NCBI RefSeq assembly: GCF_036023875.1
Contig: NZ_CP107931.1
Coordinates: 620,001 to 684,000 of the forward strand
From: Mycobacterium sp. NBC_00419
GTDB taxonomy: Bacteria > Actinomycetota > Actinomycetes > Mycobacteriales > Mycobacteriaceae
DNA length: 64,000 bases
Reading direction: 5' to 3'
Part shown: positions 12,952 to 26,075 of the stretch, one piece after another
Numbering within the stretch: position 1 is the first letter of the stretch
Layout of the letters: each line of letters opens with the position of its first letter
Notes under the pieces: model-generated
The model's input: only the letters and a program-made list of their open reading frames with translations
What the model was told of the DNA's origin: nothing
The model's database searches: none
Made by a program: the position numbers and the translations under genes

Positions 12952-14388
12952 GTGGCAGAAAAGAACGCTGACGACATCTTTAAGCTGATCAAGGACGAGG
13001 ACGTCGAGTACGTCGACATCCGGTTCTGCGACCTGCCTGGTGTCGTCCAGCACTTCTCGATCCCGGCCTCCGCGTTCGACAAGAGCGTGTTCGAGGACGG
13101 CCTCGCGTTCGACGGTTCGTCGGTTCGCGGCTTCCAGTCAATCCACGAGTCCGACATGATGCTGCTGCCGGACCCCGAGACCGCGCGCATCGACCCGTTC
13201 CGCCATGCGAAGACGTTGAACCTGAACTTCTTCGTCCACGACCCGTTCACCCGTGAGGCCTACTCGCGCGACCCGCGCAACGTGGCCCGCAAGGCGGAGA
13301 ACTACCTGGCCAGCACCGGCATCGCCGACACCGCCTTCTTCGGCGCCGAGGCGGAGTTCTACATCTTCGACTCGGTGAGCTTCGACTCGAAGATGAACGG
13401 CACCTTCTACGAGGTCGACTCCGAGTCGGGCTGGTGGAACACCGGCGAGCCGTTCGAGGCCGACGGAAGCCCCAACCTGGGCTACAAGGTTCGCCCCAAG
13501 GGCGGCTACTTCCCGGTGGCGCCGTACGACCACTACGTGGATCTGCGCGACGAGATGGCGACCAACCTGCAGAACGCCGGCTTCACCCTCGAGCGCGGTC
13601 ACCACGAGGTGGGCACCGCCGGCCAGGCCGAGATCAACTACAAGTTCAACACGCTGCTACATGCGGCCGACGATGTGCTGCTGTTCAAATACATCATCAA
13701 GAACACGGCATGGAAGAACGGCAAGACCGTCACCTTCATGCCCAAGCCGCTCTTCGGTGACAACGGCTCGGGCATGCACGCCCACCAGTCGCTGTGGAAG
13801 GACGGCAAGCCGCTGTTCCACGACGAGTCCGGTTACGCCGGCCTGTCGGATCTGGCCCGCCACTACATCGGCGGCATCCTGCACCACGCACCGTCGCTGC
13901 TGGCGTTCACCAACCCGACGGTGAACTCCTACAAGCGCTTGGTGCCGGGTTACGAGGCCCCGATCAACCTGGTGTACAGCCAGCGCAACCGGTCGGCGTG
14001 CGTGCGCATCCCGATCACCGGCAACAACCCGAAGGCCAAGCGCCTCGAGTTCCGCTGCCCCGACAGCTCGGGTAACCCGTACCTGGCGTTCGCGGCGATG
14101 TTGATGGCCGGCATCGACGGCATCAAGAAGAAGATCGAGCCGCTGGCGCCCGTGGACAAGGACCTCTACGAGTTGCCGCCGGACGAGGCCGCCAACATCC
14201 CGCAGGCCCCGACCTCGCTGGCGGCGGTGATCGACCGTCTCGAAGAGGACCACGAGTACCTCACCGAGGGTGGCGTGTTCACTCCCGACCTGATCGAGAC
14301 GTACATCGCATACAAGCGGGAGAACGAGATCCTGCCGATCCAGATCCGGCCGCATCCGTACGAGTTCGCGCTCTACTACGACGTGTAA
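12952..14388 (+). CDS. glnA1: Glutamine synthetase type I (GlnA1)
   Basis: A class I-beta glutamine synthetase of 478 residues that makes glutamine from glutamate, ammonia and ATP as a dodecamer. Recognisable elements are [10 protein letters not shown] near residue 50, metal-ligand stretches [12 protein letters not shown] and [12 protein letters not shown], and the ATP-site [12 protein letters not shown]. The adenylylation tyrosine lies in [10 protein letters not shown] near residue 405, so control by GlnE (encoded about 9 kb away in this window) is expected. The GTG start has a GGAG site just upstream and matches the N-terminus of the M. tuberculosis enzyme. Confidence 0.97.
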
Positions 14389-14948: not shown

Positions 14949-16100
14949 ATGGGCCGTAAGCACACGCCGTCCTGGCACGACGACGAAGTCGGTGCGCTCC
15001 ACGAACTGGCGCTGGGCTTCTTCGAGCGAGAAGTGGTGGCACACGTCGACACGTGGGACGCCCAGCGCCACATCGACCGCAGCGTCTGGCTGGAGGCCGG
15101 CAAGCTGGGCCTGCTGCTGTGTTCGGTTCCCGAGGAGTACGGCGGGGGCGGCGGCACCTTCGCACACGACCTCGCCGTACTCGACGCCCAGGGGTACGCA
15201 GGTGACCTGTCGCTGGGTATCGGCGTGCACAGCGGCATCGTTCCGCACTACATCGTCAAATACGGTTCGGAGGAACAGAAGCGCACCTGGCTGCCGCCGA
15301 TGGCCACCGGCGAGATGCTCTGTGCCATCGGTATGACCGAGCCGGGCGCGGGCTCGGACCTGAAAGCCATCCGCACCAGCGCGGTGCGCAAGGGCGACGA
15401 GTACATCGTCAACGGCTCCAAGACGTTCATCACCAATGGCGGCTCGGCAGACATGATCCTGCTCGCCGTCAAGACGGACCCCAAGGCGGGCGCGCGCGGA
15501 ATCTCGCTGCTGCTCATCGACCTGCACGACGCTCCTGGATTCCAGGTCACCAGGGTGCTCGACAAGGTGGGCCAGCACGGCGCGGACACCGCCGAGATGT
15601 CCTTCACCGACGTCCGGGTGCCGGTGGCCAACCTGCTCGGACCCGACGAGGGCCTGGGTTTCGGCCAGATGATCGACCAGCTCGGCCAGGAACGGCTGGT
15701 GGTCGCCGCCCAGGCGATCGGCGGCCTGGAACGCGCGGTCGACGAGACCGTGTCCTACACCAAGTCCCGGGAAGCCTTCGGGCACAGCCTGTTCGACTTC
15801 CAGAACACCGCGTTCGAACTCGCTGAGTGCGCCACGATCGCGCGTACCTGCCGCACCTTCTTCGACCACTGCGTCGAATCACACCTGCGCGGTGAGCTCG
15901 ACGGCAGCGACGCGGCGATGGCCAAGTACTGGATCACCGACCAGCAGTGTGCCGTCATCGACCGGTGCGTCCAACTGCACGGTGGGTACGGCTACATGCG
16001 CGAGTACCTGATCGCCCGGATGTACGAGGACGCCCGGGTGCAGCGCATCTACGCCGGCGCCAACGAGGTGATGAAGCAGATCATCAGCCGGTCGCTCTAG
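14949..16100 (+). CDS. Acyl-CoA dehydrogenase, long-chain type
   Basis: An FAD-dependent acyl-CoA dehydrogenase of 383 residues that makes 2,3-enoyl-CoA in beta-oxidation. Signatures are AIGMTEPGAGSDL, the flavin/substrate region TFITNGG, and QLHGGYGYMREY. The C-terminal RIYAGANEVMK lacks the glutamate found at this site in short- and medium-chain enzymes. The catalytic base is more likely the glutamate in GQERLVVAAQ, as in long-chain and isovaleryl types. The acyl specificity cannot be read from sequence. It is convergent with the carbonic anhydrase gene of the DAB operon. Confidence 0.9.
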   Translation: MGRKHTPSWHDDEVGALHELALGFFEREVVAHVDTWDAQRHIDRSVWLEAGKLGLLLCSVPEEYGGGGGTFAHDLAVLDAQGYAGDLSLGIGVHSGIVPHYIVKYGSEEQKRTWLPPMATGEMLCAIGMTEPGAGSDLKAIRTSAVRKGDEYIVNGSKTFITNGGSADMILLAVKTDPKAGARGISLLLIDLHDAPGFQVTRVLDKVGQHGADTAEMSFTDVRVPVANLLGPDEGLGFGQMIDQLGQERLVVAAQAIGGLERAVDETVSYTKSREAFGHSLFDFQNTAFELAECATIARTCRTFFDHCVESHLRGELDGSDAAMAKYWITDQQCAVIDRCVQLHGGYGYMREYLIARMYEDARVQRIYAGANEVMKQIISRSL

Positions 16101-16104
16101 CAGC

Positions 16105-16713
16105 TCAGACGCACTCCAGTAGCGAGTCACCCGCCTCACCGAGCGCACCGACGGTGGCGTAGGCCTGGATTCGTCCGCTGTGATCGGTTGTCGCGCAGAC
16201 GATCCCGCACAGTCCGGCGTCGACCCGCCGGGCGATCACCGGTGACTTCTCCAGCAGCGACATCCCGACCGAGACGATGTGGGCGGCAGCGACGGCGTCG
16301 ACGCTGTCCGCCGCCGATCCTCGCCGCACGATCGAGGTGAGTGCCTGTTCGATGGCCAGCCGGCTGGCGCCGTCCGGCACCTCGGCGGTGTCCCAGGCCC
16401 GCAATGCCGCGCGCATCGCGCTGCAGTTGTGGTGGCCGAGCACCACGATCAGCGGCACCTCGAACGTCTCGACCGCGTGCTCGAGGCTCCCGAGGACGCC
16501 GGTGTCGACGACGTGGCCCCAGGTGCTCAGGTCCAGCAGCGAACCCCAGCTCTGGCCGAACACCACCTCGTTGGCGACATCGGCGTCCGAGCACCGGAAT
16601 ACCGCGGCGACGGGCGGGCCGTCGTGGAAGTTCTGCCGCTGTGGGCGCAGCGGCCGGAAGAACAGCTCGTTGCCCGCACGCAGTCGCTGCCAGGCGCTCA
16701 TCGGATCAGACAT
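16105..16713 (-). CDS. Beta-carbonic anhydrase-like protein with an altered Asp-Arg dyad
   Basis: A beta-carbonic anhydrase fold of 202 residues. The zinc ligands C41, H94 and C97 are present (FRCSDADV and LGHHNCSA) and D43 is kept. The position two after D43, an arginine in the usual CxDSR motif, is aspartate (D45). The following RTAGH-type segment is changed to STWGH. The Asp-Arg dyad normally gates access to the zinc, so hydration activity is uncertain; it may instead be regulatory or bicarbonate-binding. It lies 31 bases downstream of the PII-like gene and is the last gene of the dabB-dabA operon. Confidence 0.85.
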   Translation of the reverse strand: MSDPMSAWQRLRAGNELFFRPLRPQRQNFHDGPPVAAVFRCSDADVANEVVFGQSWGSLLDLSTWGHVVDTGVLGSLEHAVETFEVPLIVVLGHHNCSAMRAALRAWDTAEVPDGASRLAIEQALTSIVRRGSAADSVDAVAAAHIVSVGMSLLEKSPVIARRVDAGLCGIVCATTDHSGRIQAYATVGALGEAGDSLLECV

Positions 16714-16744
16714 GGTGGTGAACCTTTCTTTTCAGTGGGCGAAA

Positions 16745-17068
16745 TCAGGAGAAGTAGTCGGGCCGGCTGACGTAGGTCTCGGTCACGAACATCACGCCGG
16801 ACGAGGCGTCGAGCAGGGGCCGCAGTCCGGCCAGCAGTGCATCGACCTTGTCTTCCGGCACCACCGTGATGAGCAGTTCCAGCGCGGCCTGCTGGTTGAA
16901 CAGCAGCCGGCCCTGGTGGTATCCGCTGTGCCCGAGCCCGGAGACCCCGGACAGGCTGGTGAAGCCGGTGGCGCCGACGCTCTGGATGAGCTCGCGCACC
17001 GCAGGCGCGTCACTTCCGGCGACGACGACCTCGATCTTGATCATCTTGGTCAGTGGCGGTGCGGTCAT
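16745..17068 (-). CDS. PII-like signalling protein of the DAB operon
   Basis: A PII-like protein of 107 residues. It begins the ferredoxin-like fold with KIEVVVAGSD and has a T-loop-like region around residues 38-58 (GVSGLGHSGYHQG) and a final strand MFVTETYVSRPDY. It lacks the classical PII uridylylation tyrosine context and looks closer to the divergent PII proteins encoded beside carboxysome and inorganic-carbon transport genes, some of which bind adenine nucleotides and bicarbonate. Its ATG overlaps the dabA stop (ATGA), so it is translationally coupled. The likely role is to report nucleotide or bicarbonate status to DabA/DabB; this is inference from context. Confidence 0.8.
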   Translation of the reverse strand: MTAPPLTKMIKIEVVVAGSDAPAVRELIQSVGATGFTSLSGVSGLGHSGYHQGRLLFNQQAALELLITVVPEDKVDALLAGLRPLLDASSGVMFVTETYVSRPDYFS

Positions 17069-19635
17069 GGAACCATCTCCTCTTCGTCGAGAACTTCTGG
17101 GGTGCTGTTGTTTTCGGTCCAGGATCGCCATCCCGCGATCGTCCATCGTTGCCATTCCTGCCCCGGCGTCTCGCGGGCTGCCATGCTGACCCAGCCGTTG
17201 CCGAAGAGCCGCTGCAGGATCGGGTTGCGCTGTACCACCATGTCGATCCGCTCCAGCGGGGCCTGGATGACCGCGAGCAGCCGCATGGGCTCGTGTGCCA
17301 GGCCCCGGCTGGTGGCCACCGACTGCCAGGGCAGCCCCAGCCGCAGGTCCCCTTCGTGGCCGGCGATGACACCGGCGGTGCCGACCACGTTGTGGATGGT
17401 CTTGGTGCCGGCGCCGAAGACCTCGGGTGCGACCGTGGAGAAGTAGTACTGGCAGTTGATCCACTGAGCGACCACCAGAGGTGCGGTCAGGATCGTCTCC
17501 AGTGCGCTGCCGTCCCGGTCGACCTCGGCGGAGTAGGAGTGCAGAAATGTCCTGCGCCGCAGGTCGATTCCGCGGGACATCTCGCGCGGGCCCACCAGGA
17601 AGGCGGCGTTGCCCGCCAGCGCCCACTCCGGGTACACCTGCGCCCAGTCCAGCGAGCGGCCCACGACGTGGCGGGCGGCCCGCGTCGGCGACATGTCCTG
17701 CGGAGCACCGGGCAGCAGCGCGCCGCGTTCGGCGGCCAGTGCCGCACCGGCGGTGGCCAGTGCACCCTGCAGCCGAACCACCTGATCGCGATGTGAGGCG
17801 GGGATCAGATGGTCGTCGAGCACCGTCACCCGGTCGGTGGCGGTGTCGTGCTGGGCGGCGAGAAACCAGGTGTGATCCGGGATGTCGATACCCAGCGGCC
17901 GCAACTCCTCGCGCACGTCGGCCTGGTTGAGGATCGCCGCGGCGGTGCGGGCGTTGGGGCCACCGGCCTGGCCTCCGCAGGCACCGCAGTCCAGTGCCGC
18001 CTGGTACGGGTTGTTCTCGGTCGTGCTGGCGTGTCCGCAGAGCACGACCAGCCGGCCGAACTGCCCCGTCAGGCCCATCGTGGTGAGCGCCACCTGGGCG
18101 AACAGGGCCCGCTGGTCCAGGGACAGGTCGGTGACGTTCAGCTCGGCCGGGGCCTGCGGAGCCACCAGGTCACGCAGCCGCCGGCGCAACCGTCCGCTGG
18201 TGGCGGGGGTCAGCGTCTTTGCCGCCGACAAGGGTGCCGCCGCCCAACCGGCCGCCTCGGCGAGAGTGAACGGCGCTGCCAGTGCATCTTTGGCGGCATG
18301 GAAGGCCGATTCGGCCGCGGCCAGTCCGCGGAACCCCGCCGCCCGGCGCGCGGCCGTGGCAGCCGCCCCGGGCGCCGGTGTCTCGTGGATCTCGTGGCTG
18401 GGCTCGATCAGTACCGGGCACAGATCGCAGGAGGCGCCACCGAGTAGGTCGGTGAACCGGATGGCGACCGCGAAGAAGCCGGCGAAGCCGAAGGTCTGGT
18501 ATCCCTCGGTCGACTCCAGGTGCCTGCGCAGCCCTTCGGAGCGGGTGTCGATGCAGGTGACCACCTGGGTGTGTGGGGTGGACGGCTCGGGCGCCTCGCC
18601 CGCGGCGCTCAGGGCGTCCAGCAGCTCATCGCGGTAATGACCCTCGAAGGCGTTCTGCCACAACATTTCCCGCGCAGTGACGGGCAGTGCGGCGAGCACC
18701 CGGGCGGCGGCGGTCAGCTCCGCTTCGGCCGCCTCGCCGACACCCCACACCTGGGCGAGGTGCACCGCACGCTGCCGTGCCGATGGGATGCGCTCGGCGG
18801 GCTGTTCGGCTGCACGCTCACTGCGGCGCCCGGCCAGCAGTGCCGCCTCATAGCTCAACCGCATGGCCAGGTAGGCCAGCAGGTCGATGCCCTTGTCGCG
18901 GCCGGCGCACCACTGGATGTGTGCCGCCCAGCCGGGCAGCCGGGTGAGGTGTGCCTGCAGGTATGCGGCACGGTCGGCGTCGTCCACGTCGAGCGCCGAA
19001 AGTGCCTGTAGGACCGCGTCATCAGGGCGTTCGGCTGCCGCGCGCAGTGCGGCCCTGGCCTTGCGGGACAGTGTCGGGTCGGCCGTCGCCAGTCCCCGCC
19101 ATGCCGTGTAGAAGCCGGCCTCGCGTCCCGGCATCGGCCAGCCGGCCTCGCCGAAGAATGCTGAGCACCACTTGGCGGCCTGCGCGTCGACGATCCGGGC
19201 CATCTCGGGAGCGCACTGTTCGGCGGTGGTGCGGAAGCGGCGGGCCGGTTGCGGCGTTCCGGTGCCGTGCAGCAGGTCGCCGCGCAGCAGGTCGGCGGGC
19301 GTGACGTCGCGAGCGCCCAGGCGCAGTACCGGTTGGGCCAGCAGGCTCGGATAGCGCCGTTGCAGCGCCCGGTCGAGGTCGGCGTCGGTGATGCGTCCCG
19401 CCCGATACAGGTCGCGGAAGCCGTCCTCGGCCAGTGTGCCCCGGGTCCCGTAGAGGTCCCCGGCGCGCCGGACTGCCTGCTCGAAGGGCAGGTTCTCCAG
19501 ACCGGCCAGCGGGTTGACCGCGATGAAGGTCTCCAGCGGGTAGTGGGTGGGCAGCACCCGGGCGGCGAGGGTGATGTCGCTGCGCAGCTGGGACCTGCGC
19601 TCGGCGAGGCTGGCTTCCAGGTGGGCGGTCGTCAT
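17065..19635 (-). CDS. dabA: DabA (DUF2309), catalytic subunit of inorganic-carbon uptake
   Basis: A protein of 856 residues of the DUF2309 family. DabA is a cytoplasmic, carbonic-anhydrase-like zinc protein that works with the membrane protein DabB, coupling cation flux to one-way conversion of CO2 to bicarbonate. The zinc and active-site residues are visible: C361, D363 and R365 in VTCIDTRSE, H535 in VLCGHASTTE, and C550 in ALDCGACGG. The 15-residue spacing from histidine to cysteine equals that recalled for Halothiobacillus DabA (H524/C539). The N-terminal LPTHYPLETFIAVNPL is also typical. It starts at the ATG overlapping the dabB stop (ATGA). Confidence 0.93.
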   Translation of the reverse strand: MTTAHLEASLAERRSQLRSDITLAARVLPTHYPLETFIAVNPLAGLENLPFEQAVRRAGDLYGTRGTLAEDGFRDLYRAGRITDADLDRALQRRYPSLLAQPVLRLGARDVTPADLLRGDLLHGTGTPQPARRFRTTAEQCAPEMARIVDAQAAKWCSAFFGEAGWPMPGREAGFYTAWRGLATADPTLSRKARAALRAAAERPDDAVLQALSALDVDDADRAAYLQAHLTRLPGWAAHIQWCAGRDKGIDLLAYLAMRLSYEAALLAGRRSERAAEQPAERIPSARQRAVHLAQVWGVGEAAEAELTAAARVLAALPVTAREMLWQNAFEGHYRDELLDALSAAGEAPEPSTPHTQVVTCIDTRSEGLRRHLESTEGYQTFGFAGFFAVAIRFTDLLGGASCDLCPVLIEPSHEIHETPAPGAAATAARRAAGFRGLAAAESAFHAAKDALAAPFTLAEAAGWAAAPLSAAKTLTPATSGRLRRRLRDLVAPQAPAELNVTDLSLDQRALFAQVALTTMGLTGQFGRLVVLCGHASTTENNPYQAALDCGACGGQAGGPNARTAAAILNQADVREELRPLGIDIPDHTWFLAAQHDTATDRVTVLDDHLIPASHRDQVVRLQGALATAGAALAAERGALLPGAPQDMSPTRAARHVVGRSLDWAQVYPEWALAGNAAFLVGPREMSRGIDLRRRTFLHSYSAEVDRDGSALETILTAPLVVAQWINCQYYFSTVAPEVFGAGTKTIHNVVGTAGVIAGHEGDLRLGLPWQSVATSRGLAHEPMRLLAVIQAPLERIDMVVQRNPILQRLFGNGWVSMAARETPGQEWQRWTIAGWRSWTENNSTPEVLDEEEMVP

Positions 19636-21188
19636 GAACGGGCTCCTGTCAGTCGGATGGAACGAGTCGGTGTGGGTGCTGCGATGTGGCCGGCGCTCAG
19701 GGCGCGGACGTAGAGGATCCGCTGCAGCCGGTCGGACCGCGGGGCCGCGCGCAGGACTGCCAGGCCGGCGAGCAGCGTCAGGGCGGCACCGGTGATGAGC
19801 CACGTCGCGCCGGCCGGGAGCACCGCGGCGGGCAGCGCCGGGGCCAGGAACCCGCTGACCGTGGTGATCAGCCAGACGTAGGCGATGCTCGCCGGCGCCA
19901 GGAAGGCGCCGGCCGCCAGCACTCCGGTGGTTCCCGGGCGGCGCTTGAGCCAGCCCCAGGTCACCGCGGCACCTGTCACCCAGGCGAAGAGCAGCAGCGC
20001 CCACTCGGCGGTGTGATCACCGGACCCCGCAGGCACCACCGTCACCGCCAGGCCGAGCGCGGCTGTCGGCATCCCCAGGGCTGCGATGAGTGCCCCGCGC
20101 CGCTGGCCATCAGTGGGTGCGGTGGGCGGCAGCATCGCCTTGCGGCGCCGGTAGGCGATGGCCGATCCGGAGGACAGGAACAGGGTGGCCTTGTAGAAGC
20201 CGTGGGCGACGAGGTGGAAGACCGCTGCGGCCCACAGCCCCAGCCCGCAGGTGAGGATCATGAAGCCCATCTGGGCCATGGTCGAATGTGCCAGCGCGCC
20301 TTTGATATCCGGCTTGACGAGCATGATGACCGCGCCGTAGCCGAGGGTGGCGATGCCCGCGCCGATCGTCAGTGCCTGGGCTGGGCCCGACGTGGCGGTC
20401 AGGGCGCTGAGCTTGATGAGCAGGATGCCGCCGGCGTTGACCACACCGGCGTGCAGCAGCGCCGAGACCGGGGTCGGAGCGGCCAGCGTGGCGGGCAGCC
20501 AGCGATGGAAGGGCATCTGGGCCGAGCGGGACAACGCGGCCACCACCACCAGGCAGGCGGCAATCGCCATGACCGGCCCGCCGAGCGGCTGCGAGGCCAG
20601 CGTCGCCAACTCGAGGCTGCCGCTGCGGGTCGCGGCCAGAACCACCGCGGTCCACAGTGCGAGGTCGCCGAGGAGGAAGGCGATGGCGGTACGCCGTACT
20701 CCGTCTCGGGCGGCGGGCAGATCCCAGTAGGTCGCCAGAAGCAGGCACAGGGCCAGCCCGGCCAGCGTCCAGCCGACGCCCAGGACCACGAGCGTCTGCG
20801 CGGTCATCAGCATGGCGGAGGCCGTGGTGAGCAGACCCGCACCCGCGGTGAACCAACCCGCTCGCGGGTCCTCGGCGAGGTAGCGGACCGCGAAGGCCTG
20901 CACGATCGTGCTGACGCCGAAGACCAGCAGCAGGAGCACCACCGCCAGCCGGTCTGCCGAAAGGGCGAGGATGGCGTTTCCGCCGGCGCCGGCCACTGTC
21001 ACCGACACCGTCTCGCCGCGTGCCGCCTCGACCGCCAGGGCGACCGCCGTCAGGAACCCGAATCCCGCAGCAGCGGCCCCGAGCCGGCCGACCAGCCGGG
21101 CGTGGCGCCGGCCTGCGGCCGCGGCGACCGCCCCGATCAGCACCGGTCCGAGCAGGCTGGCCACCAGCAGTGCGCTCATGTTCGACAT
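19632..21188 (-). CDS. dabB: DabB, membrane subunit (NuoL-like proton/sodium antiporter family)
   Basis: A highly hydrophobic protein of 518 residues with about a dozen transmembrane segments, belonging to the NADH-quinone oxidoreductase NuoL/MrpA superfamily. Family stretches include MPFHRWLPATLAAPTPVSALLHAG, cut here as MPFHRWLPA and APTPVSALLHAG, plus KPDIKGALAHSTMAQMGFM around residue 270. It should form the cation pathway that energises DabA. The ATG giving MSNMSALL was chosen because a promoter ends seven bases before it, implying a leaderless mRNA. ATG codons nine bases downstream and a TTG nine upstream are alternatives. The stop overlaps the dabA start. Confidence 0.92.
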   Translation of the reverse strand: MSNMSALLVASLLGPVLIGAVAAAAGRRHARLVGRLGAAAAGFGFLTAVALAVEAARGETVSVTVAGAGGNAILALSADRLAVVLLLLVFGVSTIVQAFAVRYLAEDPRAGWFTAGAGLLTTASAMLMTAQTLVVLGVGWTLAGLALCLLLATYWDLPAARDGVRRTAIAFLLGDLALWTAVVLAATRSGSLELATLASQPLGGPVMAIAACLVVVAALSRSAQMPFHRWLPATLAAPTPVSALLHAGVVNAGGILLIKLSALTATSGPAQALTIGAGIATLGYGAVIMLVKPDIKGALAHSTMAQMGFMILTCGLGLWAAAVFHLVAHGFYKATLFLSSGSAIAYRRRKAMLPPTAPTDGQRRGALIAALGMPTAALGLAVTVVPAGSGDHTAEWALLLFAWVTGAAVTWGWLKRRPGTTGVLAAGAFLAPASIAYVWLITTVSGFLAPALPAAVLPAGATWLITGAALTLLAGLAVLRAAPRSDRLQRILYVRALSAGHIAAPTPTRSIRLTGARS

Positions 21189-21195
21189 GCGACAC

Positions 21196-21225
21196 AAATT
21201 ACATGTGTTTAGTTTCCGGTGTCAA
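21196..21225 (-). promoter_or_regulatory. Candidate dabBA promoter (leaderless)
   Basis: On the minus strand TTGACA and TAATTT are separated by 18 bases. The -10 element ends seven bases before the ATG at 21188, so transcription would start at or next to the start codon. No Shine-Dalgarno sequence is present, which agrees with a leaderless transcript, common in mycobacteria. Confidence 0.5.
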
Positions 21226-21292
21226 TCTTCTGGAAACGGAAATCTTGTTTGTGTCGGCGGGTGTACGGACAAAACCGGAGATGGTTGTTTCC
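21212..21292. promoter_or_regulatory. Candidate operator half-sites between dabB and its regulator
   Basis: GTTTCC occurs at 21212-21217, its complement GGAAAC at 21232-21237 (arms of an inverted repeat overlapping the dabB -35 box), and GTTTCC again at 21287-21292 near the regulator start. A second short inverted repeat, ACACA/TGTGT, lies at 21192-21208. These are the obvious candidates for binding by the divergently encoded winged-helix protein. Confidence 0.4.
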
Positions 21293-21323
21293 TGTTACGG
21301 CGTTGCGGACCTAGGATTCCGGT

Positions 21324-21608
21324 ATGGCAGAGTGGACGTTTCTCACCAATCACGCCCACACGCTGCTGTGTATCGCCCGAGACCCCGGGATCCGGCTGCG
21401 CGATGTGGCCGAACGGGTCGGCGTCACCGAACGCGCGGCACAGCGCATCGTCAGCGATCTGGTCGAAGCCGGCTACCTGGACCGGCTACGTGAGGGCAGG
21501 CGTAACTACTACCGGGTCAAGGCCGACCGGCCGCTGCGGCACCCGGTCGAACGCGGCCACCACATTGGCGAGATCCTGTCGGTCCTGCACGAGGCGGATG
21601 CGACTTAG
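21324..21608 (+). CDS. Winged-helix (MarR/ArsR-like) regulator divergent from dabBA
   Basis: A compact DNA-binding protein of 94 residues. It shows helix-turn-helix text RLRDVAERVGVTERAAQRIVSDL (positions about 24-46), followed by the wing DRLREGRRNYYRV. There is no visible ligand domain. It is transcribed away from dabB across a 135-base gap containing repeated GTTTCC half-sites and is probably the local regulator of the carbon-uptake operon. A TAGGAT box six bases before the ATG suggests a leaderless mRNA. Its stop overlaps that of the convergent LLM gene. Confidence 0.82.
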   Translation: MAEWTFLTNHAHTLLCIARDPGIRLRDVAERVGVTERAAQRIVSDLVEAGYLDRLREGRRNYYRVKADRPLRHPVERGHHIGEILSVLHEADAT

Positions 21609-22465
21609 GCGTCCAGCCCCAGATCCTTGCGGAACCGCCGCATTCCGTCGATCTTGTCGGCTACCGAGGCGTCGGGCGCGCAGTAGAACACCCACGGCAT
21701 GGTGATGATGCCGTGGATTCCGGCAGCCGAGGCGCGTTCGTAGTGCTCGGGCAGGAAGGCGTCCGACAACGGGGTCACCACCGTGTAGCCGTCCATGGTC
21801 AGGCCCTTGTCGGCCCGTAACGCACGCACCTTCTCGACGCGCTCGATGGCCTGATCCAGCGTGATGAGATCGCCGATCCAGCCGTCGAGACCCGCCGCGC
21901 GGCGCAGTGCGATGTCCGACAAACCGCCGCTGTAGACGGGGATGGGTGGCGGCGTCGGGGTCATCTCCAAGCGTGGAGTCTGGTAGAACTCACCGTCGAA
22001 CTCCGTCCAGCCGGGCTGCCACAGCTCCCGCATCAGCCGGATCATCTCGTCAGTTCGCTTGCCCCGCTTGGCGAATTGCTGGCCCATCAAGGTGAACTCT
22101 TCTTCGCACCAGCCGACCCCGATACCCAGCTCCACCCGGCCGTCGGCCAGATAGGCAGCGGTGCCGATGGCCTTGGCCGCCGAGTAGGGGTCGCGCATCG
22201 CCGGAATGTAGACGGTGGTGAGGAACTTCAGCCGCTGCGTGGCCTGCGCCAGCGCCCCGACGAGCACCCACGGGTCGGGCCAGTCGGTGAACGGCTGCCA
22301 CCGGCGCTCGCCGTCGGGGGTGTACGGGTACGGGGTGGCAAGCGTCTCGAGGTTCACCACGTGGTCCGGGATGCCCAAGCCCTCGTAGCCGAGATCGTCT
22401 GCGGCCTTTGCGATCTCGATGACCTCACTGGTCTTCAGAAAAGCGCAGCTGACGTAGAATTTCAT
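21605..22465 (-). CDS. LLM-class F420-dependent oxidoreductase
   Basis: A luciferase-like TIM-barrel protein of 286 residues of the F420-dependent class common in mycobacteria. Features are the N-terminal MKFYVSCAF, DLGYEGLGIPDHV, the cofactor-site GIGVGWCEEEF near residue 120 and the C-terminal PWVFYCAP. The substrate is unknown. The ATG giving MKFYVS overlaps the stop of the thioesterase gene (ATGA), so the two are coupled, and glnE is five bases further upstream in the same direction. Confidence 0.88.
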   Translation of the reverse strand: MKFYVSCAFLKTSEVIEIAKAADDLGYEGLGIPDHVVNLETLATPYPYTPDGERRWQPFTDWPDPWVLVGALAQATQRLKFLTTVYIPAMRDPYSAAKAIGTAAYLADGRVELGIGVGWCEEEFTLMGQQFAKRGKRTDEMIRLMRELWQPGWTEFDGEFYQTPRLEMTPTPPPIPVYSGGLSDIALRRAAGLDGWIGDLITLDQAIERVEKVRALRADKGLTMDGYTVVTPLSDAFLPEHYERASAAGIHGIITMPWVFYCAPDASVADKIDGMRRFRKDLGLDA

Positions 22466-23094
22466 CCGGTTGCAACCCTCGCCCACGCTGGCATGATGAA
22501 AACCCCTTCTGCTTCAACAGTGGTCCCTTGCGCGTCGCCCAATGTGCCACGCGCATAGGTCTTGTGTCCCTCGGTGCGCTCCACCCATGCCCGCGCCCGC
22601 AGCGGCCCCAGCGGTGTTCCGCGAAGATACTTCAGCGTGATCGTGCCGGTGAACCTGGGCTTGCTGAGCTGGTTGGTCGCGACCTCACCGAGCAGCTGGT
22701 CGAGCAGCAGCGCGCAGATCCCGCCGTGCACCAGCCCGGGCGGGCCCTCGTAGAGAGGTCCGAGCGTGAACTCGCTCCAGCACCGGCCCGCACCGTCATG
22801 GTGTGTCGTCATCGGCGGCGCCAGCGGATTGTGCTGTCCCACAGCCGGATTGCGCCACACTACCGGCAGTCCGGTCTCGGCATGCCGCAGGATCCGCGGC
22901 CGGTCGGTCGCAGTGCGCTCGAGCACCTCACTGACCGCGTCGATGGCCTGGCGGGCCGCGACGATCGTCTCCTCGTCGGCCCCGCTGTGCAGGCTGGCGT
23001 CGACGAGCCTGCGCACCGCCTCGGCCAACGGCTCGTGCAGCGCCGCGATCCGGTCATGCTCTTCGGCACTGATGAAATCCCAGTCGACATCCAT
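22462..23094 (-). CDS. PaaI/hotdog-fold thioesterase
   Basis: A protein of 210 residues. The N-terminal 100 residues form a helical region. The C-terminal half is a hotdog domain with GPPGLVHGGICALLLDQLLG, the family's active-site helix, and FTGTITLKYLRGTPLG. It probably hydrolyses an acyl-CoA. The ATG giving MDVDWDFIS lies five bases after the glnE stop, so the run glnE - thioesterase - LLM oxidoreductase appears to be a single transcription unit. Confidence 0.85.
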   Translation of the reverse strand: MDVDWDFISAEEHDRIAALHEPLAEAVRRLVDASLHSGADEETIVAARQAIDAVSEVLERTATDRPRILRHAETGLPVVWRNPAVGQHNPLAPPMTTHHDGAGRCWSEFTLGPLYEGPPGLVHGGICALLLDQLLGEVATNQLSKPRFTGTITLKYLRGTPLGPLRARAWVERTEGHKTYARGTLGDAQGTTVEAEGVFIMPAWARVATG

Positions 23095-23099
23095 TGCCG

Positions 23100-26075
23100 T
23101 CAACCCCCGAACACTCGCAGCGCCACCGTCTTGGCCCTCCGGGTGACGCGAAGGTAGTTGTCCAGGAACTCTCCGCCGTCGTCGTTGTGCCAGCCGGCCG
23201 CCACCGCCACCGCATTGAGCTGACGGCCCGGCCCTGGCAGCTGGTCGGTGGGCTTGCCGCGCACCAGCACCAGCGCGTTGCGCGCCCTGGTGGCTGTGAG
23301 CCACGCCTGGCGCAACATGTCGACGTCGTCCTCGGCGAGCAGCTCGGCTGCGCCGATGACGTCGAGTGTCTGCAACGTCGAGGTGTTGTGCAGCGCTGGC
23401 ACCTCGTGTGCATGACGCAGTTGCAGCAACTGCACCGTCCATTCGATGTCGGCCAGGCCGCCGCGACCGAGTTTGGTGTGGGTGTTGGGATCGGCGCCGC
23501 GCGGCAGCCGCTCGGCGTCCACCCGGGCCTTGACCCGCCGGATCTCGTGCACGGCCTCGGCCGACACCCCACCGGCGGGGTACCGGGTCTTGTCCACCAT
23601 CAGCAGGAAGCGGTGGCCCAGTTCGAGGTCGCCGGCCACCCGGTGGGCACGCAGCAGCGCCTGAATCTCCCAGGCCTGCGCCCACTGGTCGTAGTAAGCC
23701 TCATAGGAGGCCAGGGTGCGGACCAGCGGACCCTGCCTGCCTTCGGGCCGCAGGTTGGCGTCGACCTCCAACGGCGGGTCCGCGCTCGGGGTGCCCAGCA
23801 GTGCACGGACCTGCTCGGCGATCGACACCGACCACTTGACTGCCCGGGACTCCTCCACTCCGGCGTTCGGTTCGCAGACGAACATCACGTCGGCATCCGA
23901 GCCGTAACCCAACTCGCCGCCGCCCAGGCGGCCCATGCCGATGACGGCGATCCTGGCCGGGACCGTGCCGTCGGCGGCGGTGTTCGCCCGGATCACCGCC
24001 TCCAGCGCCGACTGCAGCACCGCCACCCAGATCGAGGTGAGGGCGGCGCAGACCTGCCTGACCTCGAGCATCCCGAGTAGGTCGGCGGAGGCGATCCGGG
24101 CCAGTTCGCGTCGGCGCAACGTGCGGGAGGCACTGATGGCCCGCACCGGGTCGGGATGCCGCGCGGTCGAGGCGATCAACGACCGCGCCACACCGTCGGG
24201 ATCGACGTCGAGCAGTTTGGGCCCGGCGGGCCCGTCGGCGTACTGCTGGATCACCTCGGGGGCGCGCATCAGAAGTTCGGGTACGAATGCCGAGGTGCCC
24301 AGCACCCGCATCAGCCTTTTAGCAACGGCGCTCTCGTCACGCAATGTGCTGAGATACCAACGCTGTTCGGATAGCGCCTCACTGACGCGGCGATAGGCCA
24401 GCAGGCCGCTGTCCGGGTCGGGGGTGTCCGAGAGCCAGTCCAGCAGTCGCGGCAGCAGCACCGCCTGCACCCGACCGCGCCGGCCGTTCTGGTTGACCAA
24501 CGCGCCCAGATGGGTCAGGGCGCTCTGCGGACCCTCATAACCGAGTGCGGCAAGCTGCCTTTCGGCCGCCGCGGGAGTCAGGCCGGGGGCGAGGCCCACC
24601 GATGGACCGACCGACTCCAGCAGCGGCTGATAGAACAACTTGGCATGCAGCCGCGACACCCGCAGGTTCTGCCGCTTGATCTCCTCGCGCAGCACGCCCA
24701 GCGCGTCGTGGGTGCCGTCGGGTCGCATGTGGGCCGCACGCGCCAGCCAGCGCAGCGCCTCGATGTCGTCGGGTGCGGGCAGCATGTGAGTTCTCTTGAG
24801 GCGCTGCAATTGCAGTCGGTGCTCGAGCAGGCGCAGGAACTCATAGGACGCGGTGAGGTTGGCGGCGTCGTCACGGCCGACGTATCCCCCGGAGCTCAGT
24901 GCCGCCAACGCGTCCAGCGTCGAGGCCACGTGCAGCGAATCGTCGGTGCGGCCGTGCACCAATTGCAGCAACTGGACCGCGAATTCGACGTCGCGCAGGC
25001 CGCCGGTGCCCAGCTTGATCTCCCGGTCGCGCACATCCGCAGGCACCAGCGCCTCGACCCGGCGCCGCATCGCCTGGACTTCGGGCACGAAATCCTCACG
25101 CTCACAGGCGGTCCAGACCATCGGCATCAGCGCCGCGCGGTACTGCTCCCCCAGTTCGGCGTCACCCACGGCCGGCCGGGCCTTCAACAGGGCCTGGAAC
25201 TCCCAGGTCTTGGCCCAGCGCTGGTAGTAGGCGATGTGCGAGTCCAGCGTGCGCACCAGAGCGCCCTGCTTGCCCTCGGGTCGCAGTGCGGCGTCGACTT
25301 CGAAGAAGGTGTCCGATGCCAACCGCATCAGTTCACCCGCGACCCGGGTGGTGATCGCATCGGCGAACTCGGCGACGAAGATGACGTCGACGTCGCTGAC
25401 GTAATTAAGTTCGCGCGCACCGCATTTGCCCATCGCGATGACCGCGATGCGAGGTGCCGTCTCATCCTGTTTACACACGGCCGCCACCGCGACCTGCAAC
25501 GTGGCGTGCAGCGCGGCATCAGCCATGTCGGAGAGATGGGCGCCGACCGTCTGGAACTGCAGGACGGGTTCGTTCTCGACGGTGGGTGCCAGGTCAAGAC
25601 CGGCCAGGATCAGCAGCTGGTCGCGGTACAGAGTCCGCAGCTTCGGCATGATTGTGGCTGCGGCTGTTCCGAATTCGCCGATGCAATCGTCGAAGGCTCG
25701 CCGCAACTGCGCGGCATCGGGCAGCGTCACGGCCCCTTCGAGTAGATGCCAGGAGCGCGGGTTGGCCACCAGGTGATCGCCGAGTGCCGACGACGAGCCG
25801 ATCACGGCGAACAGTCGCCCGCGCAGACCACGATCCTTGAGTAGCGCAGAGTTCAGTTGCTGCCAGTCCGGGCCGAGCGCCTCGGCGAGTCGGACCATCG
25901 TGTGCAGCGCGACGTCGGCATCGGGTGACCGCGACAGCGACCACAGCAGCTCGACATGGGCATCGGTATCCCAGCCCAGTACAGCCAGGTCAGCGGGTGC
26001 AGTGCGTTCGACCAAACCGAGTCGGCCCACGCTGGGTACGCGTGGGCGCTGCGTCGCTGGTTTGGCCACGCCCAC
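23100..26075 (-). CDS. glnE: Glutamine synthetase adenylyltransferase/adenylyl-removing enzyme GlnE
   Basis: A bifunctional enzyme of 991 residues, full length for the family, that adenylylates and deadenylylates glutamine synthetase. Two nucleotidyltransferase modules are visible: the first with [13 protein letters not shown] (about residues 224-236) and the second with [13 protein letters not shown] (about residues 723-735). Each is followed by a helical GlnD/GlnE-like domain. The target is the tyrosine near residue 405 of GlnA1. The first of two GTG codons was used; the second begins two codons later. It is located between glnA1 and glnA2, as in M. tuberculosis, but separated from glnA1 by the inserted DoxX/DAB block. 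Confidence 0.95.

Follow-up and report, generated by a model that had tools for sequence, protein, structure and literature searches.

A DAB-type pump, a CPII-type PII-like protein and a probable pseudo-carbonic anhydrase form a conserved cassette in Mycobacterium

DAB2 of Halothiobacillus neapolitanus, for which both subunits are available as structures (PDB 9rd0), is the closest described relative of the pump considered here. Passages of the 2026 structure paper report that replacement of its zinc-site, dyad, finger and proton-path residues by alanine impaired function, and that variants of its ion pairs lowered the growth yield by 30-60% and retained complementation (PMC13144422). The introduction of that paper names regulation against futile cycling as a key question for DAB-type complexes. 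For one group of organisms, an excerpt of a review of DIC toolkits (PMC10880623) describes the risk that bicarbonate leaks away via cytoplasmic carbonic anhydrase (CA). CPII of Thiomonas intermedia is a carboxysome-associated PII protein with several structures (5d4l, 5d4n-5d4p, 5drk and 5ds7). In CPII-type proteins, bicarbonate enhances adenylate binding. Here we describe a locus of Mycobacterium sp. NBC_00419 in which relatives of these proteins are encoded together with a relative of the carbonic anhydrase CanB. In our reading, a DAB pump supports heterotrophic carboxylation, a CPII-type sensor gates it and a pseudo-carbonic anhydrase is its non-enzymatic partner; we give this joint reading a probability of roughly 0.6.

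The window, that is, the whole stretch of 64,000 nucleotides that was analysed, comes from a source genome of one contig and 5.6 Mb. Its relevant features are collected in Table 1. As the original prediction held, dabB, dabA, a PII-like gene and an atypical CA-like gene run in one direction, ATGA overlaps of 4 bases couple the first three, and a winged-helix gene is divergent. All five genes are intact frames, and their Pfam matches all lie above the curated cut-offs (25.7 for PF00484); DabB matches PF00662 as well. The CA-like gene starts 31 bases downstream of the PII-like stop codon, close to it and without overlap. The cassette is flanked by glnA1 and glnE, and the same interval also holds genes for DoxX, an acyl-CoA dehydrogenase, a luciferase-like monooxygenase and one thioesterase-like protein (a label given from appearance). 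To our knowledge, the glnA1-glnE interval of M. tuberculosis holds nothing.

Table 1. Coordinates of the cassette and of neighbouring features in the window
Feature	Position	Strand	Support
dabB, NuoL-like membrane subunit, 518 aa	19632..21188	-	PF00361, 124 bits
dabA, zinc carbonic-anhydrase-like subunit, 856 aa	17065..19635	-	PF10070, 804.6 bits
PII-like gene, CPII type	16745..17068	-	PF00543, 62.6 bits
CA-like gene, most likely a pseudo-carbonic anhydrase, 202 aa, CanB paralogue	16105..16713	-	PF00484, 67.6 bits
Divergent winged-helix regulator, 94 aa	21324..21608	+	HTH_24 / MarR_2 above cut-off
dabB promoter: TTGACA, 18 bases, TAATTT, 7 bases, ATG	21189..21225	-	conservation; leaderless start predicted
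Operon dabB-dabA-PII-like-CA-like	21188..16105	-	
ATGA overlap dabB/dabA	19632..19635	-	
ATGA overlap dabA/PII-like	17065..17068	-	
glnA1	12952..14388	+	
glnE	26075..23100	-	

The original prediction was made on this one mycobacterium. The operon is real, but it is not peculiar to the source genome: DabA occurs in 66 of 297 Mycobacterium genomes. Long stretches around dabA were compared for 60 of these 66 (left out were the source genome itself, G000, and G106, G212, G260, G268 and G288). In 57 of the 60 stretches the four genes keep this order and strand, so the arrangement is not due to chance; of the remaining three, L046 and L081 are contig ends and L099 is a decayed locus. The closest cassettes among the loci fetched are L072, L076 and L080. 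An overlap of 4 bases joins dabB and dabA in 56 of 63 placed loci and dabA and the PII-like gene in 42 of 62, where two genomes are counted twice and some deviations reflect automatic choice of the start codon. Two duplicates, L006 (the contig of L080) and L065 (the contig of L007), were dropped from the counts other than those on the 60 stretches L040-L099 and these junction counts. The PII-like gene is found in 63 of the 297 genomes and the CA-like gene in the identical 63, all of them with DabA; CA-like genes were defined by a score gap (at least 258 bits, versus at most 191 for the next, CanB-like group). The three DabA genomes that have neither partner are G139 and G212, where dabA lies at a contig end, and G074, where the locus is decayed.

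The location between glnA1 and glnE, on which the original prediction had remarked, is correct for the window but is one of several homes of the cassette. Of 62 distinct loci, 19 have at least one of the two genes close by and 13 have both; canB of the Rv3588c type lies inside the stretch in 15 of 60, and the remaining loci are at other sites. The whole four-gene cassette is also carried by a mobilizable MOBF plasmid of 23.7 kb in Mycolicibacterium aubagnense from mine sediment (L127, NZ_CP122998.1), together with TerC, CBS-domain and DUF6671 genes. The cassette has thus moved as a unit, with copies at various chromosomal positions and one on a plasmid, and this plasmid is a possible route of its spread. 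A Nocardia plasmid carries DAB genes and a PII-like gene, with no CA-like gene listed alongside in an incomplete gene table. Eight actinobacterial loci outside the genus include the PII-like gene in seven cases and a CA-family gene in one (L102), although four of these eight stretches extend just about 1.5 kb past dabA. The CA-family gene of L102 lies upstream on the opposite strand, and its motif, C-A-D-P-Q, likewise has no Arg. Since DAB-PII pairs outside the genus come without this CA-like gene, the CA-like partner seems, in this small sample, to have joined a DAB-CPII pair mainly in mycobacteria.

Several loci show further features. Two tandem CA-like genes follow the PII-like gene in genome G026 (L042:11600-13056); the second copy was dropped from the counts. 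In G074, dabA is broken and the PII-like and CA-like genes are missing, and in G165 dabA is split into two frames (L099 and L098, respectively); these are either signs of ongoing loss of the cassette or assembly errors. A DUF6671-like gene lies near dab in 22 of 63 clustered loci, including two plasmids (L127, L128), and also on a Mesorhizobium plasmid (L009:3229-4101; L127:3078-3896; L128:1031-1888; L133:6380-7243). Its product recurs with DAB across phyla, as judged from a cluster of which one member was Pfam-scanned. A DUF6671 search gave no match in the source genome and likewise none in the control genomes. Of 63 clustered loci, 14 have a gene for a TerC-family membrane protein close to the cassette, the M. 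aubagnense plasmid among them (L056:6050-7060; L127:1381-2367; one member Pfam-scanned).

Upstream of dabB, a pattern is conserved across loci: TTGACA (TTGACG in a few), 18 bases, a TANNNT hexamer, 7 bases and ATG. In 19 of 19 loci with a divergent regulator, this ATG starts 37 bases downstream of the first T in TTGAC, and in 18 of them it shares the reading frame of the called dabB. From this conserved distance, a leaderless dabB mRNA is predicted. A consensus promoter scan of positions 15900-22600 gave no hits (mean of 0.3 in shuffles); the dabB promoter is not listed by it, and TAATTT matches TATAAT at three of six positions. A single terminator-like site was found, inside dabA on the other strand (mean of 1.4 in shuffles). 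The MarR-like winged-helix protein probably controls the leaderless promoter. By eye, a palindrome, GTATTnnAATAC, stands between the -35 and -10 elements in part of the clade; it is absent from the window, and we therefore do not claim it as an operator.

The two pump subunits have clear structural relatives. DabA has a sole solved match, DabA2 (9rd0_A), which covers it nearly full length with an E value of 9.9e-107. The top solved match of DabB is DabB2 (9rd0_B, E 2.8e-39), nearly tied with chain 5 of complex I (3.1e-39), so DabB and NuoL are not separable by score alone; DabB is set apart by its position before dabA. Among the aligned mycobacterial DabA sequences, from which those of 800 aa or less were dropped, C361, D363, R365 and H535 are invariant (61 of 61), and a single sequence lacks C550 (60 of 61). 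All seven proton-path residues of DabB2 are kept in 62 of 62 DabB sequences. In a pairwise alignment, the finger Glu appeared to be replaced by Lys449 (61 of 61). This was rejected, as a multiple alignment that includes DabA2 indicated a misalignment and has the Glu in 15 of 15 rows. The ion pairs differ from those of DabB2: all 62 sequences have Arg for K235, and R182 is mostly Leu. With these two changes, the coupling in DabB may differ from that in DabB2; since the published ion-pair variants still complement, we regard the change as a difference of degree. A PF10070 DabA and a PF00361 DabB in one operon, with the zinc ligands, the Asp-Arg dyad, the proton path and the finger Glu, make the assignment to the DAB family safe. 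The activity, the coupling ion and the end use we infer.

Of the four operon proteins, the PII-like one varies least, with 74-92% identity to the window copy in 25 aligned relatives and a dN/dS of 0-0.11 (the alignment sets, 26 PII-like and 31 CA-like sequences, are a subset of those found). The partner named in the original prediction is present, and profile and fold place it with the CPII type rather than the nitrogen type. Its profile matched CPII with E values of 7.6e-21 and 9.2e-21, the former over the full length without a gap, and other PII proteins were far behind (0.02 or worse). In the fold search with a model of pLDDT 81.9, the top matches were CPII chains, the first of them with ADP, AMP and bicarbonate, followed by another PII-like protein and then by SbtB. 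Both in sequence and in fold, CPII is thus nearer to the protein than GlnB/GlnK and SbtB are. Within the T-loop, residues 46-52 have low model confidence, yet several of them are invariant, as would be expected for a loop that folds on a partner. Given its family and its conservation, the protein may bind the ligands of CPII and dock on the pump.

The CA-like protein matches the Rv3588c structures 2a5v (E 2.6e-30) and 1ym3 (2.7e-30), and its model (pLDDT 88.6) has 1ym3 as top match with a TM score of 0.85, consistent with the beta-carbonic anhydrase fold and the PF00484 match. In place of the CxDxR motif, the window has C-S-D-A-D. Across the window and 59 loci, the catalytic position holds Arg in 5 of 60 and otherwise Asp, Gly, Ala, Pro, His, Glu or others. 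Beyond these five, the plasmid copy also has Arg, and Arg is found in none of 120 database relatives (the best 120 of 967). The entropy of this column ranks fourth among 157 (residues 33-189), whereas Arg is fixed in 13 CanB sequences. The CanB copies in the same stretches, a control within the same loci, have CxDSR in 15 of 15. Of the 60 sequences, 54 retain the zinc ligands Cys-His-Cys (C41, H94 and C97 in the window) and 58 retain the Asp. Ser replaces both zinc Cys residues in five of the 60, which form one clade, and the second Cys alone in one; both are Ser in 2 of the best 120 of 967 database relatives. A comparison of 61 CA-like with 13 CanB sequences shows that the Gly after the second zinc Cys is mostly lost, with Trp for Ala65, Ser for Arg63 and Arg for Gly40, and that 35 positions are fixed as in CanB, including P4, W8, L11 and G14 of the N-terminal arm. 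Within the CA-like family, conservation of R40 and W65 reaches 90% or more. The two families are unmixed in the drawn tree; an automatic check for CanB monophyly returned False, which we attribute to rooting. Arg-bearing CA-like sequences, the plasmid copy among them, are nested with mixed support among relatives that have no Arg, so Arg comes and goes within the family.

The setting of the cassette bears on what the pump may serve. It is one without RuBisCO: no PF00016 match was found in the source genome, a single contig, by a search that was positive in 5 of 14 control genomes, and DAB and RuBisCO are uncorrelated in the 297 genomes. RuBisCO is present in 42 of these, namely in 10 of the 66 DabA holders (9.3 expected; Fisher p 0.84) and in 32 of the other 231. 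A search for other carbonic anhydrases, proposed along with the original prediction, yielded three further PF00484 genes in the source genome, all with intact C-x-D-[S/A]-R and H-x-x-C motifs. Taken together, the missing RuBisCO match and the three other enzymes make a Calvin-cycle role unlikely, and the pump is not the sole likely source of bicarbonate. Carboxylases that serve lipid and anaplerotic metabolism are the likely users of the bicarbonate. A Methylocystis rosea plasmid (L136:5821-8502) has bioD, ccrA (crotonyl-CoA carboxylase/reductase) and cysD after its dab genes; a dab pair near bioD and ccrA fits such users and hints at bicarbonate consumers other than RuBisCO.

Other readings of the pump and of its PII-like partner can be weighed against these data. 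DAB and CPII were described from chemoautotrophs, which could place the cassette in an autotrophic CO2-concentrating mechanism, but the missing PF00016 match and the lack of a DabA-RuBisCO association in the 297 genomes make this extremely improbable, and the link to autotrophy was rejected. In other bacteria, GlnE-type enzymes are under the control of PII proteins, and in the source genome the PII-like gene does lie between glnA1 and glnE. That it serves nitrogen control is nevertheless highly improbable: the gene occurs solely with DabA (63 of 63 genomes), most loci have neither gln gene nearby, the protein matches CPII and not GlnB/GlnK, and in 4 of 4 genomes of the phylum outside the genus that have the PII-like gene a dabA match lies 101-124 bases away. 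The nitrogen link was rejected on this co-occurrence and on the varied neighbours. For the pump itself, a passage of the structure paper notes that MpsAB of Staphylococcus aureus has been proposed as a sodium-bicarbonate symporter (PMC13144422). DabBA could, in the same way, move bicarbonate with sodium or another cation rather than carry out pmf-driven CO2 hydration, and its ion-pair residues, unlike those of DabB2, would be in keeping with this. We consider cation symport unlikely, as the zinc site and the finger Glu of DabA and the seven proton-path residues are all kept.

For the CA-like protein, decay as the cause of the lost residues was rejected: dN/dS is 0.05-0.17 in 14 chosen pairs, so the gene is not a decaying pseudogene. 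That the protein is a functional carbonic anhydrase whose active site has been rebuilt, using for instance Arg40 or Trp65, is a doubtful alternative. The conservation of R40 and W65 and the widely kept zinc ligands and Asp would suit it, and part of a study of MpsAB (PMC8552792) describes, for B. subtilis, B. anthracis and S. sciuri, a putative carbonic anhydrase directly downstream of MpsAB. Against such an enzyme stand the clade with Ser at both zinc Cys positions, which is itself under purifying selection (dN/dS 0.05-0.11 in three pairs), the same change in database relatives, and the frequent loss of the Gly after the second Cys; an active enzyme beside the pump would also be expected to waste its product. 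The protein that the original prediction called atypical is indeed so, but the lost residues and the dN/dS values make it, most likely, a pseudoenzyme and paralogue of CanB. Its sequence, which has lost catalytic residues while remaining under purifying selection and in strict co-occurrence with the pump, suggests an inactive protein with a role of another kind. Because most members keep the zinc ligands, zinc binding, weak or altered activity, or ligand sensing may persist.

In the reading of pump, sensor and pseudoenzyme that we prefer, DabA would hydrate CO2 at its zinc site and DabB would couple this hydration to ion movement across the membrane. Bicarbonate would accumulate in the cytoplasm and feed carboxylases in a cell without RuBisCO. 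The CPII-type protein would read bicarbonate and adenylates and, by way of its short conserved T-loop, dock on the pump. The CA-like protein, derived from a CanB-type enzyme, would no longer hydrate CO2 and would act as a regulatory or structural partner of the pump. Use at low CO2 and self-regulation of the operon, both part of the original prediction, we likewise infer. The three other carbonic anhydrases of the genome would short-circuit the bicarbonate pool unless restrained. One tentative and rather unlikely possibility is that the pseudo-carbonic anhydrase, being produced along with the pump, forms mixed oligomers with CanB and silences it, preventing the dehydration of pumped bicarbonate to CO2; it draws on the shared fold, the conserved N-terminal arm and the lost active site. 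If true, such a brake and the CPII-type sensor would give a heterotroph two-sided control of inorganic carbon, with the pump on and the leak off. Poisoning of CanB is the bolder reading, and it is most likely that the dead enzyme regulates or scaffolds, as the loss of catalytic residues in a protein kept by selection points to regulatory use.

The DAB pump is of a known kind and is common rather than special in mycobacteria. The fixed combination of DAB, CPII-type protein and pseudo-carbonic anhydrase appears to be new, as far as the literature matches listed show: among those from the open-access literature, no title or abstract start concerned DAB or a DAB-linked pseudo-carbonic anhydrase in mycobacteria. 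The terms DUF2309 and mycobacteri were found together in PMC13144422 alone in the open-access literature searched, and a mycobacterial passage of that paper concerns Rv1284. From the original prediction, the operon, its partners and the divergent regulator stand; the cassette proves to reach beyond this genome and this site, and the types of the PII-like and CA-like proteins have been revised. A pump, a CPII-type sensor and a selected, apparently dead carbonic anhydrase form a fixed cassette in about one fifth of the sampled Mycobacterium genomes. This cassette extends CPII-type proteins to cells without RuBisCO and could serve as a compact test case for how a pseudoenzyme may regulate a bicarbonate pump.

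Compared with the known systems, the cassette combines close likeness with specific departures. It shares both subunits, the zinc site, the Asp-Arg dyad, the finger Glu and the seven proton-path residues with DAB2 of H. neapolitanus. Unlike DAB2, it resides in a mycobacterial genome without a RuBisCO match, its operon adds the PII-like and CA-like genes, and in the DabB ion pairs Lys has become Arg and Arg has mostly become Leu. According to excerpts on MpsAB of S. aureus (PMC8552792), DAB in heterotrophs has a precedent there, and the MpsAB neighbourhoods of Bacillus and S. sciuri described in them likewise have a CA-family gene just downstream. Here, in contrast, the PII-like gene lies in between, and the CA-family gene has lost catalytic residues. 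CPII of T. intermedia matches the PII-like protein over the full length without gaps and is its best fold match, at 36% identity; the mycobacterial protein differs in being a fixed partner of DAB in a genome with no RuBisCO match. The CA-like protein resembles CanB of the Rv3588c type (1ym3, 2a5v) in whole-chain homology, with 34-37% in the fold match and the 35 positions fixed alike, and departs from it in that R45 and G98 are free to vary and A65, R63 and G40 have become W, S and R.
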